Part shown: positions 26,730 to 46,391 of the stretch, piece by piece
Position numbering within the stretch: the stretch's first letter is position 1
Layout of the letters: every line of letters starts with the position of its first letter
Source of the DNA: Halopenitus malekzadehii
GTDB lineage: Archaea > Halobacteriota > Halobacteria > Halobacteriales > Haloferacaceae
Direction: 5' to 3'
NCBI RefSeq assembly: GCF_900108505.1
Contig: NZ_FNWU01000012.1
Coordinates: 1-46,391, forward strand
Length of the DNA: 46,391 nt
The notes under the pieces: generated by a model
The model's input: the letters and a program-made list of their open reading frames with translations, nothing else
The model's database searches: none
Told to the model about the DNA's origin: nothing
Position numbers and translations under genes: made by a program

Positions 26730-27809
26730 TTAAGCTTCGTGAGCGACGTCGCCAGTGAGCGGGATGTCGTGCTCGCTCGCCAGCTGGGGATCGACCGCTT
26801 CGTACCGGCGTCGATTCCCCGGCAGTGAGTCCCACTCGATCAGGCCGTACTCTCGGAGCTTCTCGAGCTTCGTCCGCCGAGTTCGACGGGCGATCGGTTC
26901 GAGCGGCCGGTCTTGGTACGCCGCCGCCGCGATCGTGTCGTATCGACTGTGGAGCTGGTCGCTCGCTGCTGGGTCGAGCGCGCGCACGAGCTCGTAGAGA
27001 ACGTGATGATGATACGGCAGCGACCGAAGATGCGAGGCCCGAATCTCTTCGAGTGCTCGGTGTTTGCCGTCGACGAGGTTGCCGTCCGTGATGCTGTCCC
27101 GACCCTGGTCGGTGGCGACCTCGGCGGCACACCGTACGGTCTGGACGCCGAGTCGGGCGACGCCGGCGACGAGATCGCCGACCGTCTCCAGCTGCTCGCG
27201 CGTGATCACTCCGGGCTCGAGGCCGTGTTCCACGCGTGGCTCGAGGATGTCGGCGATGGCTTCGGGAGAGTACCGGTCCAGGGCGATGTGATGTTCGCCG
27301 TCGAACTGCGACCGGAACTGTTGGTCAATGCCGGCGAGCCAGGCTTCCTCGTCGTGGGCGACGGCGACGATCGCGACCTCGGGAACGCCGGCGAGCATAT
27401 CGAGCGTGTCCGTGGCTGGGAGGTCGTCGGCCTCGTCGAGAATGAGGATGTACGGATCGTCGACTCGCTCGCGGAGGATCCGCGGTAACTCGTCGGTGGG
27501 GGTTCCCCGGTGGACGTCGATCCCGCAGCGATGTTGGTTGATCGCCTCGCGGAGGATGGTTCCCCCCGTTTTTCCGAGTGTTCGGATCAGCGCAGTGTCG
27601 ACGGCTGCCGCCTCGCGGAGCTCGCGCAACGCGAACCGTGCAAGCGCGGTTTTGCCCACGCCGCTCGGGCCAGTGATGAGGACGTCGTCGGGGCGCCGGC
27701 CATCGACCGCTGGCGTGAGGGCTCGCGACAGCTGCGAGATCGCGGGATCGCGGTGTGGGAGCTCTCGAGGAAGATGCTCCTCAGCGAAGTAGCGGCCGTC
27801 GTGTATCAT
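26730..27809 (-). CDS. orc1/cdc6: Orc1/Cdc6 replication initiator
   Basis: A 359-residue AAA+ protein starting MIHDGRYFAEEHLPRELPHR. Walker A is GPSGVGKT (residues 47-54) and Walker B ILILDEAD (121-128). GDLVAGVARLGVQTVRCAAE marks the lid region. The C-terminal ~80 residues, with RTRRTKLEKLREYGLIEWDS, form the winged-helix DNA-binding domain. It binds origin repeats and recruits MCM. The start lies about 27 bp from a TATA box. Its stop codon overlaps a TGTTGGTTAAG half-site. At 359 residues it is shorter than many haloarchaeal chromosomal Orc1 proteins (about 400-550). Confidence 0.93.
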   Translation of the reverse strand: MIHDGRYFAEEHLPRELPHRDPAISQLSRALTPAVDGRRPDDVLITGPSGVGKTALARFALRELREAAAVDTALIRTLGKTGGTILREAINQHRCGIDVHRGTPTDELPRILRERVDDPYILILDEADDLPATDTLDMLAGVPEVAIVAVAHDEEAWLAGIDQQFRSQFDGEHHIALDRYSPEAIADILEPRVEHGLEPGVITREQLETVGDLVAGVARLGVQTVRCAAEVATDQGRDSITDGNLVDGKHRALEEIRASHLRSLPYHHHVLYELVRALDPAASDQLHSRYDTIAAAAYQDRPLEPIARRTRRTKLEKLREYGLIEWDSLPGNRRRYEAVDPQLASEHDIPLTGDVAHEA

Positions 27810-31124: not shown

Positions 31125-31151
31125 GTGTCTGACGTAGCTTTATCACGGTCG

Positions 31152-31201
31152 CGTTTCGATCGTTTCAGAGTATGACTGGAACGACTGAAACGATCGAAAC
31201 G
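31152..31201. repeat. 17-bp inverted repeat spanning the parA start (parS-like)
   Basis: CGTTTCGATCGTTTCAG (31152-31168) and CTGAAACGATCGAAACG (31185-31201) are perfect complements with a 16-bp spacer that contains the ATG at 31172. The right arm lies inside the coding sequence. It is a candidate centromere or operator for the ParA system. Confidence 0.75.
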
Positions 31202-32005
31202 TCACCGGCGATCGTGGCGATGCTCAATCAGAAGGGTGGGGTGGGGAAGACGACACTCACGATCCACGTTGCCGGCGCGCTTGCCGACCGAGATCTCGAT
31301 GTCCTTGTGGTCGACCTCGCGCCGGAGGGTGCACTTACGTCGATCCTTGGCTACGACGATGAGTACAGCGACCTCGACCGCACGGTGTCGCTCCACGAGC
31401 TGCTACTCGATCCGAGCCGCGCCGGCGACGCCGATGATATCATCCTCGAGGGCGAGGAGTTCGACCTGTTACCGTCGAACGAGCGGATGGTCGATCGTAC
31501 CGGTGGAGAACTCAACGGTGAGCCTCGCGCTCGGGAGCGACTGAAGATGGTCCTCGACGAACTCGGGGTAGGCTACGACGTCGTCCTCGTGGACAATATG
31601 CCGAGCATCAACGTGCTTACGGACAACGCCCTGGTGGCGAGCGATGGCGTTCTGATCCCCGCGTACGCCGAGGCGCTCTCGGTGCAGGGGCTCGACCGCC
31701 TGCAGAAGCAGATCGACAGCGTTCGGGAGTACTTTGGTGCGGTACGGATACTGGGCATCGTTGCGAACCGCGTGGAGCACAACAAGCAGGCTGACGCGAT
31801 GCTCGAGCAGCTCCACTCGGAGTTCGAAGAGGGGCTCGGCATCCCGGTGATCGACGTCTACAAGCGGGTCGACCTACAGCGCGCGATCGCCGCGCAGGAG
31901 CGCTCTATCTTCGCCGCCGAGGAGCTCGACAGCGATATGGCTGGGGTGATCGCCGAGATCGCGACGCTCGTTGATGACGAACTCGTGGGGCAGGCAGATG
32001 AGTGA
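31172..32005 (+). CDS. parA: ParA-family partition ATPase
   Basis: A 277-residue protein. The deviant Walker A is KGGVGKTT (residues 21-28), followed by VLVVDLAPEGALTSILGYDD (switch region) and VVLVDNMPSINVLTDNALVA (Walker B with an unusual NMPS where CPPS or APPS is common). The first ten residues MTGTTETIET are encoded by a repeat motif. ParA proteins distribute low-copy replicons before division. The overlap with the next gene and the local repeats support a partition locus, meaning the virus may persist as an episome. Confidence 0.9.
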   Translation: MTGTTETIETSPAIVAMLNQKGGVGKTTLTIHVAGALADRDLDVLVVDLAPEGALTSILGYDDEYSDLDRTVSLHELLLDPSRAGDADDIILEGEEFDLLPSNERMVDRTGGELNGEPRARERLKMVLDELGVGYDVVLVDNMPSINVLTDNALVASDGVLIPAYAEALSVQGLDRLQKQIDSVREYFGAVRILGIVANRVEHNKQADAMLEQLHSEFEEGLGIPVIDVYKRVDLQRAIAAQERSIFAAEELDSDMAGVIAEIATLVDDELVGQADE

Positions 32006-32474
32006 CGACCAGGACGACGCCAGCGATGAGCTGGGGAAGACCAGCGAGAAGATGGGCGGCATCGCCGACCGTTTCGGTGCGGCGACCGACACGTCTGAAA
32101 CGATCGAAACGGGTGAAACGACCAACACGAGCGAAGATGATGCTGCGGAGTCTTCTGAAATGACTGAAACGACTGAGGCGACAACAACGACCGAAACGAG
32201 CGAAACGATCGAAACGTCTGGAACGACCGACACGAGTGAGACGCTAGAGCCGGGTGATGAAGGGTTCGTACTGCGTGAAGACTGGAATGGTCGGACGATC
32301 TACCTTCCGGATGACGTCGTCGACGATCTCGATATTCGGTACTCTGAGGTCAACGTCAAGTGGCAGCGAGAACACGGCGAGCAGTTGCCGAAGAACGAGC
32401 GGTTTTACCCGGCGTTGGTGCGGGCAGCGATCAACGAGACGTCGATCGAGGAAGAGCTCGGTCTCGATCGGTAG
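31998..32474 (+). CDS. ParA partner (ParB-like) with repeat-encoded Thr/Glu linker
   Basis: A 158-residue protein starting MSDDQDDASDELGKTSEKMG (ATG 31998, overlapping the parA stop by 8 bp). The middle ~60 residues are low-complexity Thr/Glu/Ser, for example DTSETIETGETTNTSE. The C-terminal part (GFVLREDWNGRTIYLPDDVV and ERFYPALVRAAINETSIEEE) is a folded domain, probably DNA-binding. The linker DNA carries further copies of the parA-start motif. The role is inferred from position. Confidence 0.65.
   Translation: MSDDQDDASDELGKTSEKMGGIADRFGAATDTSETIETGETTNTSEDDAAESSEMTETTEATTTTETSETIETSGTTDTSETLEPGDEGFVLREDWNGRTIYLPDDVVDDLDIRYSEVNVKWQREHGEQLPKNERFYPALVRAAINETSIEEELGLDR
32095..32216. repeat. 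In-gene copies of the parS-like motif
   Basis: CTGAAACGATCGAAACG is exact at 32095-32111; GAAACGATCGAAACG recurs at 32202-32216, with several degenerate GAAACG units between. The repeats encode TETIET-type peptides, and the same nucleotide choice recurs rather than synonymous codons. Confidence 0.7.
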
Positions 32475-32831: not shown

Positions 32832-33026
32832 ATGGCAGCATCAAAACGAATACCAGTCACAGAAGATCGATGGAAAGAACTGAACGAACTGAAGGAAGCT
32901 GGTCAGACCTACGACGAGCTACTGAAGGAACTGATCCAAGAAAAGAACCGAAGCGAACTCGCCGAGCGCGTCAGATCGGTTCGCGAGACCGACGTGGAGG
33001 AACTGACTGCGCTCGATGAGCTATAG
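32832..33026 (+). CDS. Antitoxin, VapB/RelB-like
   Basis: A 64-residue protein starting MAASKRIPVTEDRWKELNEL. The N-terminal 'IPVTEDRWKELNELKEAGQT' and YDELLKELIQEKN follow the haloarchaeal VapB/DUF7557-type antitoxin pattern, and are related to the two switch proteins at 26 kb. It overlaps the toxin gene by 11 bp. The antitoxin would bind the toxin and its own promoter. Confidence 0.85.
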   Translation: MAASKRIPVTEDRWKELNELKEAGQTYDELLKELIQEKNRSELAERVRSVRETDVEELTALDEL

Positions 33027-33309
33027 TGTTCACCTCTCGGAGCAAGCATCTGAGTACTATCAGGCGTTAGATGATAAGAGCCAGCGGATCGTCAAAGAGA
33101 ACCTCGAGAAGCTAGAGGACGAGCCGTATCCAAAGCCAGGTGCAGGTAGTGGCGACCGAGAGAAGATCGTCGTCGACGGCGAGGAGATATACCGACTTCA
33201 CATCGGTCGGACACACACTGCTCTCTACGATGTTGTCGAGGATCGGGGCCAGGTCAAAGTGGTTGAACTACTCGGGATCGACGAGGCTCACGATCGCTAC
33301 GGATACTAG
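33016..33309 (+). CDS. RelE/ParE-family toxin
   Basis: A 97-residue protein starting MSYSVHLSEQASEYYQALDD. The family pattern is clear: 'L..(Q)AS.YY..LD.(K)' helix, then YPKPGAGSGDREKIVVDGEE, IYRLHIGRTHTALYDVVEDR and VKVVELLGIDEAHDRYGY. RelE toxins cleave ribosome-bound mRNA, ParE targets gyrase; which applies here is not determined. With its antitoxin it may stabilise the episome or provirus. Confidence 0.88.
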   Translation: MSYSVHLSEQASEYYQALDDKSQRIVKENLEKLEDEPYPKPGAGSGDREKIVVDGEEIYRLHIGRTHTALYDVVEDRGQVKVVELLGIDEAHDRYGY

Positions 33310-33792: not shown

Positions 33793-35130
33793 ATGCAACA
33801 CGACTACAGCGACAAGATCGACCGTCGCGTTCGACTGGTCGAGACAGACGAAGAGATAACCGATCCCGAACGAGAACAACTGCTGAAGTTCCACGAGGAG
33901 ATCGAGAAGCACAACCGTCGAGCAAGCGCGAACAACCAAATCTCGGGCACCCGTCACGAATCCTACCTCGCGCACGCCCACCGACTCGTCCGGAACACCG
34001 GCCTGATGCTCCAGATTCTTGACCCACAAACTGGGGTGGATGTCGTAGATTCCATCGGCAGCTGGATCGACGAGTACGACAACGGCTACACCCGCGACAA
34101 CTACATCAGCGCTCTCCGTGCGTGGGGTCGGTTCCTCGCACCCGACGCGAGGGATGACAAACACCCTGAACGATTCGGGGTTCTCGAGCTGGGTAACGTC
34201 GAGGATGACCAGCCGGCGCCTGAACCTTCGGAGGTACTCTTCTGGGACGACGTCATCACCATCATCGAGGCGGCTAAAGACTTTCCGACCGGCAAGCGCA
34301 CTGCCGCGATCGTGGCGCTTCTCTGGGCAACCGGCGCGCGCCCTATGAGTGAGTTCTGGGAACTCGAGTACCGTCAGATCGACGACCGCGGGGACCACCT
34401 GCTCATCAGCATCGAAAGCGATTCGAAAACGTTCTCACGAACAATTCGTATCGACGTCGGAATTCCGTACGTCCGGCGTTGGATGTACAAGTGTCATCCC
34501 GCGAACGACACCGAGCGCGGTCCGCGACCAGACACGAAGCTCTGGACGCCGATGAACGAAGACCGACTCTTAGACTATCAGCAGATCCGCAAGAGCATCA
34601 AGCGGGTTGGTAAGACGACCGACCTGATGAAACCGCTCAAACCGGAACACTACCGAAAGAGTCGAGCATCGATCCTCGCCTCGTCCCGGTGGGTCACCCA
34701 GCGTGACCTCGAGCAGCACTTCGGGTGGGCACGAGGATCTCGCGTCGTCGCGCACTACATCGCGGTGTTCTCAGACAAGAGCCGAAAACACATCGCCAAG
34801 GCCGACGGTGCCGATGTCGAGCTCGACGCCGAGCAAGAGCCCATCGTTCCCGTGTGGTGTGACAACTGTGGCAGGCAGACGCCACGGCATCGGGAGTTGT
34901 GTCTCTGGTGTCCTGCCGAGACGATCGCTAGCCTCGGTCGTGAGCCACGGCTGAACACATCACCTATTCCCGACGAAGAGAAGGACCTTCTAGACCTGAT
35001 CGTCAGTGGCGAGGTCGATGCTGATGGGCTCCGTCAACTACAAAAACTCGAACCCGTGATCCGCCGTCGCGACGATCTGTTCGATCGGCTGTCCGACTAC
35101 ATCGAGCACGCCGAAGTCATCGCGGAGTAA
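33793..35130 (+). CDS. int: Tyrosine recombinase (integrase) with C-terminal zinc ribbon
   Basis: A 445-residue protein starting MQHDYSDKIDRRVRLVETDE. The catalytic core includes Arg183 (ATGARPMSEFWELEYRQIDD), His286/Arg288 (KPEHYRKSRASILASS, a slightly shifted HxxR box) and Tyr322 (RVVAHYIAVF). A zinc ribbon follows (VWCDNCGRQTPRHRELCLWC). The N-terminal core-binding domain includes NGYTRDNYISALRAWGRFLA. It would integrate the genome or resolve multimers. This architecture is common in haloarchaeal proviruses and plasmids. Confidence 0.9.
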   Translation: MQHDYSDKIDRRVRLVETDEEITDPEREQLLKFHEEIEKHNRRASANNQISGTRHESYLAHAHRLVRNTGLMLQILDPQTGVDVVDSIGSWIDEYDNGYTRDNYISALRAWGRFLAPDARDDKHPERFGVLELGNVEDDQPAPEPSEVLFWDDVITIIEAAKDFPTGKRTAAIVALLWATGARPMSEFWELEYRQIDDRGDHLLISIESDSKTFSRTIRIDVGIPYVRRWMYKCHPANDTERGPRPDTKLWTPMNEDRLLDYQQIRKSIKRVGKTTDLMKPLKPEHYRKSRASILASSRWVTQRDLEQHFGWARGSRVVAHYIAVFSDKSRKHIAKADGADVELDAEQEPIVPVWCDNCGRQTPRHRELCLWCPAETIASLGREPRLNTSPIPDEEKDLLDLIVSGEVDADGLRQLQKLEPVIRRRDDLFDRLSDYIEHAEVIAE

Positions 35131-36480: not shown

Positions 36481-37368
36481 ATGACAGATATGGATAGTCG
36501 CCGACGACGGATTGCACAGGGCATCCAAATCGGCGAGCACACGTCGATCAAGCAGTCCGCAGCTGAAGCACTCAGTGGGCGGTCAGGTCGATCTCACTCC
36601 CGAGACGACGCTATCACGCCGCGGCAATGGGAACGGATGCTCAGGGCGAGCTACGACATCGACAACGACGAGATCGCCTTGGAGTGCCGAATGCTTGCCG
36701 TGGCTTGCGGCCGACTCGGTCTCCGCGCTGGCGAGGTGACGCATCTCCACGAGGAGTGGATTGACTGGAATGACGGTACGATTCAGATTCCCTCGTACTG
36801 GAACTGCACCAAAGGAAGCGGCGACGAGGTCTGTGGCTACTGTCGTAACCGCGCACGCGACAATCTCGATAGCCATAACCTGACCGAGGAGGAAGCCACC
36901 GACGCGATTGTCGCACACTACGACGACGCCACGCTGGAGTCGATGACTGACGACGAGCTCCTCGCCGAGGCCCAAGAACTCCGCGAGGAAGTGAACGTCA
37001 CGCTCGAAGCGATGCTCGAGAAGCGCTGGTCGCCAAAGACCTCAACGTCGGCGCGGGGTATACCGTTTGACTTCAGCGCACGGATCGAGCTGATCGTCGA
37101 GCAGTTTTTCGACCGGTTCGACGCCTACGAGAAGAGTTTCGCGACAGTCCACCGCCGGATCGACCGGCTCGCCGACTGCGCGGGCATCGAGAGCAACGTC
37201 TACCCGCACGCGCTTCGAGCGACGTCGGCGTCGTTCCACGCCTCACGCGACATCAGCGTCCACGCGCTTATGTCGATTATGGGGTGGGCCGACCCCGGAA
37301 CGGCTCGCGTTTACATCCAGTCGAACGACGAGAAGGCGGCCCACGAGATCCGCAGCAAACACCGGTGA
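36481..37368 (+). CDS. Second tyrosine recombinase with CxxC insertion
   Basis: A 295-residue protein starting MTDMDSRRRRIAQGIQIGEH. Catalytic residues appear as Arg82 (RLGLRAGEVTHL), Lys186 (WSPKTSTSARGIPF), His243/Arg246 (YPHALRATSA) and Tyr278 (DPGTARVYIQ). An insertion with Cys109, Cys118 and Cys121 (CTKGSGDEVCGYC) may bind zinc. It lacks a full N-terminal core-binding domain. Haloarchaea carry such proteins beside DUF7344-type genes. It may act with or independently of the larger integrase. Confidence 0.85.
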   Translation: MTDMDSRRRRIAQGIQIGEHTSIKQSAAEALSGRSGRSHSRDDAITPRQWERMLRASYDIDNDEIALECRMLAVACGRLGLRAGEVTHLHEEWIDWNDGTIQIPSYWNCTKGSGDEVCGYCRNRARDNLDSHNLTEEEATDAIVAHYDDATLESMTDDELLAEAQELREEVNVTLEAMLEKRWSPKTSTSARGIPFDFSARIELIVEQFFDRFDAYEKSFATVHRRIDRLADCAGIESNVYPHALRATSASFHASRDISVHALMSIMGWADPGTARVYIQSNDEKAAHEIRSKHR

Positions 37369-45599: not shown

Positions 45600-46391
45600 T
45601 CAGGTCTCCCTCGCAAGCCGGTCGAAGAACTCCTCGAGCGCCGTCGACGTTCCCTGCTGAGCCGCCTGTTCCACACTGTTTTCAGGCGACCCAGATCCGT
45701 CGATGGTGATGTTGTTCGTCACCGTAATGTCGATTGTCTGACCGCCACCGCCGCCAGACGCCTGGCCGCCGATTGCGTCAGCGGCTGCCCCGGCGACCAT
45801 TCCAGCTGGCGTCTTAGACATCAACCCGCCGAGTGCCTGCACACCTTGCCCTGCCGGCGTGGCTGCAAGCACTGACGACACCGACGAGACCAACTCCCCT
45901 TGTTCGCCCTCGATCCCGCTCGCGATCGTCTGGACCAGCGCCGGTCCAGTCTCGTCGAGCGACTGGAGCGGTCCCGCAGCCGCAGGCGAGAACGGCAGTC
46001 GATCCCGTATCCCTGACGCGACGTCAGTGACTGCGTCGACGGGGGACGTCGCCATTCGCTTGATCCCCCGTGCGACCATCGTCGGGATCTGTTCGCCTGC
46101 CGAGATCCACTTCTGCGGGTTCGAGATCATATCCCGAGCCGCCATCAACGGGCCCACCAGCGGGACCAAGTACTTCCATTTCCCCAGCGAATTCAGCCCC
46201 GCGATGATATTTCCGGGAAGCTCGGATGCCGCCTCTCTCACATCCGGACCGGCACCGGTGATCAACTCGTGTGCGCCCATCAGTGGGCCCACCAGCGGGA
46301 CCAAGTACTTCCACCGACCCAACGAGTTCAGGCCCGCAACGATCTCTCCAGGAAGCTCCGTCGCTGCCTCCCTTACATTCGGACCGGTACC
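45600..46391 (-). CDS. Tail tape measure protein, C-terminal part (continues from base 1)
   Basis: This is the 3' part of the tape measure gene whose start is at 2243. It holds two more copies of the 45-residue repeat (WKYLVPLVGPLM at the core) and a C-terminal part rich in Gly/Ala/Ser (SSVLAATPAGQGVQALGGLM; QTIDITVTNNITIDGSGSPE). It ends LARET at 45600. The frame matches the left part when the 20-bp terminal repeat is merged. Confidence 0.88.
   Translation of the reverse strand, partial: GTGPNVREAATELPGEIVAGLNSLGRWKYLVPLVGPLMGAHELITGAGPDVREAASELPGNIIAGLNSLGKWKYLVPLVGPLMAARDMISNPQKWISAGEQIPTMVARGIKRMATSPVDAVTDVASGIRDRLPFSPAAAGPLQSLDETGPALVQTIASGIEGEQGELVSSVSSVLAATPAGQGVQALGGLMSKTPAGMVAGAAADAIGGQASGGGGGQTIDITVTNNITIDGSGSPENSVEQAAQQGTSTALEEFFDRLARET
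46165..46391. repeat. 135-bp tandem repeats of the tape measure gene (spanning the junction)
   Basis: The sequence ACCAAGTACTTCCA occurs at 46165, 46300 and (after the junction) 64, always 135 bp apart, so the repeat unit is 45 codons. Copies differ by several substitutions. The true copy number may differ, because the contig ends fall inside the array. Confidence 0.75.
46372..46391. repeat. Terminal direct repeat (right copy)
   Basis: Identical to bases 1-20. See the left copy; it closes the circle in frame with the tape measure gene. Confidence 0.85.

Follow-up and report, generated by a model that had tools for sequence, protein, structure and literature searches.

A 9-bp, three-codon unit arrayed in frame through a haloarchaeal parA-partner locus: a putative operator and centromere

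Introduction

A short DNA sequence recurs at the start of a haloarchaeal parA gene and inside the gene downstream of it, where it encodes a repetitive Thr/Glu linker. The question raised by this locus is whether selection acts on the DNA or on the peptide and, if on the DNA, what the repeated sequence may do. What serves as a centromere in archaeal plasmids and chromosomes is listed among the outstanding questions (PMC5120986). The window analysed here is the whole contig IMGVR_UViG_2651870118_000001, a stretch of 46,391 nucleotides of Halopenitus malekzadehii, related to ChaoS9, phiH and phiCh1, which are haloarchaeal myoviruses. It shows a 20-bp direct repeat, CTTACATTCGGACCGGTACC, at both ends (1-20 and 46372-46391), and the contig is therefore probably a closed circle of about 46.4 kb. 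The window also contains genes encoding an Orc1/Cdc6-like ATPase and two tyrosine recombinases (26730-27809, minus strand; 33793-35130 and 36481-37368, plus strand).

The parA gene and its partner

The locus contains two overlapping genes on the plus strand. The first, parA (31172-32005), encodes a Walker-type partition ATPase of 277 aa (Pfam AAA_31, 1e-34; PHROG ParA-like partition protein, 2.7e-42). It carries the sequence NQKGGVGKTT, with the Walker motif beginning near residue 19, and it is short and has no N-terminal DNA-binding domain, as expected of a type Ib-like ParA. The second gene (31998-32474), whose start overlaps the parA stop at 32005, encodes a protein of 158 aa, the predicted centromere-binding protein, which is here called the partner. 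A short ParA with a Walker motif, a small downstream partner and repeated sites in the promoter are, at the sequence level, features of a type Ib-like ParABS system. Downstream of the partner gene there is a small gene pair (32832-33309) with weak, sub-threshold matches to a VapB antitoxin and a ParE toxin, a candidate toxin-antitoxin maintenance pair.

The partner shows an N-terminal D-R-F motif (32067-32075, plus strand), which recurs across several classes of the family and is a candidate ParA contact, followed by a linker and by a C-terminal predicted DNA-binding domain (32250-32471, plus strand) made of the strand RTIY and two helices (AlphaFold2 pLDDT of 82 for the domain alone). Linkers in the family are acidic and predicted to be disordered. 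The strand-helix-helix order predicted for the C-terminal domain is the topology of ribbon-helix-helix proteins, and the Pfam match to RHH_5 is weak (0.098, in two of 35 family members). Foldseek against PDB and BFVD, together with VIA-align 2, gave no significant match for the full-length and C-terminal models, and a ribbon-helix-helix fold may still apply. Sequence searches of Pfam, PHROGs, NCBIfam, PADLOC and PDB did not turn up a usable, functionally characterised homologue; no ParB domain was found (one sub-threshold Mor match in Pfam and no ParB in NCBIfam), and Pfam gave no RepA_N match. A gene encoding an HNH endonuclease domain fused to a partner-type C-terminal domain lies beside a parA locus elsewhere in the family (phiH1_255; L004:3737-4174 and L116 near 1944-2627), and its product may be a nuclease directed against a related array.

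The repeated unit in the window

The preliminary description had reported four copies of a 17-bp parS-like motif at this locus, and all of them are present: CTGAAACGATCGAAACG is found exactly at 31185-31201 and 32095-32111 on the plus strand and at 31152-31168 on the minus strand, and a shorter form, GAAACGATCGAAACG, at 32202-32216 on the plus strand. This is far above chance, since a search allowing up to three mismatches to CTGAAACGATCGAAACG gave eight matches in the window, all within 31152-32234, and a mean of 0.30 and a maximum of 2 in 100 dinucleotide shuffles searched in the same way. The 3.14-Mb genome of the window contains GAAACGNNNGAAACG at 11 sites, of which six fall inside this 1.06-kb stretch, and its reversed control does not occur at all. 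The 17-mer, however, is not the repeating element, which is a 9-bp, three-codon unit, GAAACGANN (GAA ACG ANN, encoding E-T-x), with extra copies at 32106, 32115, 32166 and 32193. Because 9 bp equal three codons, an array of this unit can stay in frame both at the start of parA and in the partner linker.

In the window, the promoter holds two units as an inverted pair, the opening codons of parA hold a direct pair, and the partner linker is encoded by an array. The inverted units (31152-31168, minus strand) are non-coding, with CGTTTC at 31152 and 31161, and lie between the TATA-like box and the parA ATG at 31172. The direct units (31178-31201, plus strand) show GAAACG at 31187 and 31196 and a degenerate GGAACG at 31178. 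The linker-coding array of E-T-x repeats (32095-32243, plus strand) shows GAAACG at 32097, 32106, 32115, 32166, 32193, 32202 and 32211. The idea that the motif is written inside coding sequence therefore holds for the parA start and the partner linker, but not for the copy at 31152-31168, which belongs to the promoter.

The family and its classes

A search with the partner profile found the family in 219 of the 391 Halobacteria genomes searched, so that it is not specific to viruses. Scans of viral contigs gave a few relatives with the window and class II partners, and nothing with class III, IV and V partners. The 128 parA-partner pairs, in nearly all of which the partner adjoins parA, were reduced to 111 non-redundant loci and divided in five classes by the N-terminal sequence, independently of the DNA unit. 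Class I contains the window, ChaoS9 and Halorubrum loci, class II contains phiCh1, class III contains pNG600, class IV contains contig C6 of the genome to which the window belongs, and class V contains pHG4 and a heterogeneous remainder. The locus of contig C6 (L003) is a second ParA system in this genome and shows a non-coding array of GAATCAGTG, a unit different from that of the window, at 1-300 and 1640-1670. The N-terminal motif of the partner, scored as R[FYL]x within the first 36 residues, is present in all class I, II and IV partners, in six of nine class V partners and in none of the 41 of class III; loci within a class are kin, and such class counts overstate independence.

Across the 111 loci the unit varies by subfamily (GAAACGA, TCAAAGA, TGATTCA and TCTAAGA). 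The unit of a subfamily is usually also present in the non-coding DNA 5' of parA; several subfamilies have it in the linker too.

Copies of the unit in non-coding DNA and promoters

Sharing of the unit between linker and upstream DNA was scored by repeated 6-mers and by the density of the core; the coverage of 7-mers of the own versus other classes was dropped as too blunt. The 6-mers repeated in the linker are above dinucleotide shuffles upstream of parA in 29 of 41 class III loci, six of 13 class II loci, the window and none of 25 class IV loci, start codons having been set by rule, which leaves some upstream regions off by a few codons. In class III, the density of AAACGA is 24.6/kb upstream of parA and 22.5/kb in the linker, versus 0.2/kb in the parA body, and the identity at lag 9 is 0.50 upstream and 0.48 in the linker, versus about 0.26 at most unrelated lags. 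The consensuses of the non-coding promoter arrays and the linker arrays of this class are nearly identical, with spacings of 9, 18 and 27. In class IV the unit is non-coding, located 5' of parA and 3' of the partner gene, and the linker is Thr/Glu-rich, non-periodic and free in its codons. Class V gives a weak, heterogeneous signal: L010 shows copies in both promoter and linker, and L106 in the promoter alone. Promoter copies thus occur in class IV and in L106 with no array in the linker, and the linker array is optional. One locus is an exception to this distribution, L101, in which the linker repeats GTAAAACCG and TCTAAAACG have no copies upstream of parA.

Upstream of parA, the window shows the promoter element GTCTGACGT followed by the TATA-like TTTATCA at 31139-31145 (31127-31145 in all, plus strand). 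This element and the TATA-like box are common to classes I, II and IV, although the units of these classes differ; GTCTGAC is found upstream of parA in 9/9 class I, 16/16 class II and 33/36 class IV loci and in 0/41 class III loci. Within class I, seven of nine loci show CGTTTCnnnCGTTTC (two of these with one mismatch) between GTCTGAC and the ATG, at a constant distance from GTCTGAC, and the inverted pair is absent from the other two, ChaoS9 and pKBTZ02_38. The pair at 31152-31168 is a predicted operator half. In the phiH1 record the mapped transcript T7 starts 5 nt 5' of the parA ATG, so that in the window the inverted units probably lie within the core promoter. An RNA hairpin at the start of parA, formed by these inverted units, was also considered; it folds well (-33.7 kcal/mol) but is unlikely to be active in the mRNA, because transcription probably begins at or next to the parA ATG.

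Selection on the DNA or on the peptide

Codon usage in the linkers separates the two possibilities. The dipeptide E-T is encoded by GAA-ACG in 77 of 89 cases in class I linkers and 158 of 216 in class III linkers; the corresponding figures are eight of 100 for class IV linkers and none of 45 for the remainder of the class III genes. The serine following E-T is encoded by AGY in 82 of 82 cases in class III, versus none of 17 in class IV, and the other linker serines of class III are mostly TCN. Shuffles of synonymous codons within genes at no point attained the observed counts. Class I linkers contain 82 GAAACG (mean of shuffles 29.6, maximum 39) and the first 30 codons of class I parA contain 32 (mean 5.5, maximum 12); the linker unit count is 183 in class III (mean 59.5, maximum 76) and 44 in class II (mean 13, maximum 20). 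In the first parA codons of class I the GAAACG copies are kept and the residue between them varies (T, A, G, I or S). Class II and class V linkers change to S-K-x along with the promoter unit. The class II parA 3' end shows TCAAAGA/TCTTTGA at 9-bp phase encoding F-K-D and V-F-E, not S-K-x, with a unit count of 62 (mean of synonymous shuffles 25.4, maximum 36). This array is located in conserved ParA coding sequence, and in L006, for example, it lies roughly 173 to 131 nt upstream of the stop codon of parA.

The proposal that selection acts on the DNA and not on the peptide, with the Thr/Glu linker for the most part a by-product of the DNA unit, is thus well supported by the sequence comparison: there are non-coding copies, a codon lock, joint changes of unit and tripeptide, and class II copies in other frames. 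When bases and amino acids are compared in relatives, E-T is locked to GAA-ACG only where the unit is nested. Homologues with a Thr/Glu linker and free codons, named beforehand as evidence against this proposal, do exist in class IV, but the unit is not nested in their linkers. A pure microsatellite origin was rejected on account of the non-coding copies and the switching of the unit; the perfect tandem copies of ChaoS9 suggest that slippage also contributes.

Residues of the partner that track the unit

The predicted strand with which the partner C-terminal domain opens changes with the unit. RTIY is found with AAACGA in 49 of 49 cases, ATIY, ATLY or STIY with GATTCA in 36 of 36, VNMY with CAAAGA in 17 of 18, and VLMY with CTAAGA in three of five; owing to relatedness within classes, this covariation represents at most a handful of independent events. 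Locus L025 shows a class-V-like domain and body, yet its strand is VNMY and its unit CAAAGA. The strand is predicted to contact DNA. The arrays, their coding and non-coding positions, the constraint at the DNA level and the switching of the unit with the strand residues were all computed directly.

Discussion

The explanation considered probable as a whole is that the window replicon is a circular haloarchaeal virus-plasmid carrying a ParA-type partition module, in which the partner would bind contiguous 9-bp units that act as both operator and centromere and are partly written within the genes of the module. The partner, with its N-terminal motif, disordered linker and C-terminal strand-helix-helix domain, would recognise the unit GAAACGANN. 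Arrays of units in either orientation, at 9-bp phase, would provide an operator spanning the promoter and the start of parA as well as a centromere (parS), and the tripeptide repeat E-T-x would be a by-product of the in-frame array in the linker. Partner dimers on contiguous promoter and linker units would repress transcription of parA and the partner gene, and the array-bound partner would form a partition complex that engages or stimulates ParA on the nucleoid, so that the replicon copies are moved apart. Partner binding, repression, ParA stimulation and partition are what we infer from the arrangement of the sequences.

The units might instead be autoregulatory operators, with intragenic copies that tune expression or roadblock transcription and a centromere located elsewhere. 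The position of the promoter units between TATA and start is compatible with this, as are the many class IV and class V loci with promoter copies and no linker array, but the long intragenic arrays far downstream in classes I-III and the class II array at the parA 3' end exceed what an operator needs, and operator and parS are one DNA in characterised RHH-ParB systems (PMC9499535); this alternative is judged unlikely. Less probable again is that the units are replication iterons read by an initiator, the parA-partner genes lying merely beside or over an origin. RepA_N plasmids do show 8-9 bp direct repeats within the rep gene (PMC5703833, PMC7145576), and the window has an Orc1/Cdc6-like gene; this gene, however, is 3-5 kb distant, the unit changes together with the partner's strand residues, and the arrays accompany parA and the partner on different replicons. 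Very improbable is a need for the acidic Thr/Glu linker itself, with DNA repeats arising from codon preference and replication slippage, which would suit the acidic, predicted disordered linkers and the perfect tandem copies of ChaoS9 but is contradicted by the non-coding arrays of the matching unit, the free codons of the class IV Thr/Glu linker, and the class II and V linkers that shift to S-K-x with the promoter unit, with copies in other frames.

Repeated units and nested sites are each already known. The delta-omega system of pSM19035 resembles the module described here in its small ParA, its small DNA-binding partner and its contiguous direct and inverted short units overlapping the promoters of the partition genes (PMC9499535). 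Its omega units are 7-bp WATCACW heptads located in promoter regions, and they are not matched by the 9-bp GAAACGANN and variants, which extend in frame into both genes. The ParA-ParT-parS system of the Streptomyces plasmid SCP2 has its parS within the coding sequence of the centromere-binding protein ParT (PMC12260392), but this is a single 18-bp inverted repeat used with a ParB-like sliding protein, whereas the loci described here show many short units and no Pfam ParB match. In RepA_N plasmids of the pSK41 type, a DNA-binding protein has its sites within the part of its gene that encodes its own dispensable linker; there, the protein is a replication initiator and the linker-coding rep segment an origin, and here it is the partner of a ParA (PMC5703833). 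The Sulfolobus SegAB and pNOB8 AspA-ParB-ParA systems are also ParA-type segregation systems of archaea, and their sites likewise lie 5' of the operon; these sites are palindromic (an imperfect palindrome; 23 bp) rather than 9-bp direct or mixed arrays (PMC5120986). Homologous parA-partner modules are present in the haloarchaeal myoviruses phiCh1, phiH and ChaoS9 (PMC6471424, PMC6210493); phiCh1 differs in its TCAAAGA unit. The partner was left unannotated in these viruses or, in phiH1, named for an HNH domain, and no mention of unit arrays was found in the portions consulted of the ChaoS9 and phiH1 papers. Nested sites and repeated units joined as in-frame 9-bp arrays, with unit switching, in an archaeal ParA partner family were not found in the open-access papers searched.

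The wider reading, favoured with somewhat less confidence than the mechanism proposed for the window, is that these loci represent an undescribed, widespread haloarchaeal ParA-partner family, in which a codon-commensurate 9-bp unit would let centromere arrays spread in frame. Several specificities (GAAACGA, TCAAAGA, TCTAAGA, TGATTCA and perhaps TCACAGA) would have arisen by joint exchange of unit and strand residues, and the disordered linker would be written by the centromere. Candidate centromeres and their likely readers are predicted for the family present in those 219 of 391 Halobacteria genomes, which makes archaeal centromeres directly testable, and natural specificities and natural chimeras within the family are available for this purpose. 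The nested DNA site also offers an explanation for a low-complexity protein segment and is a caution against reading such linkers as protein features.
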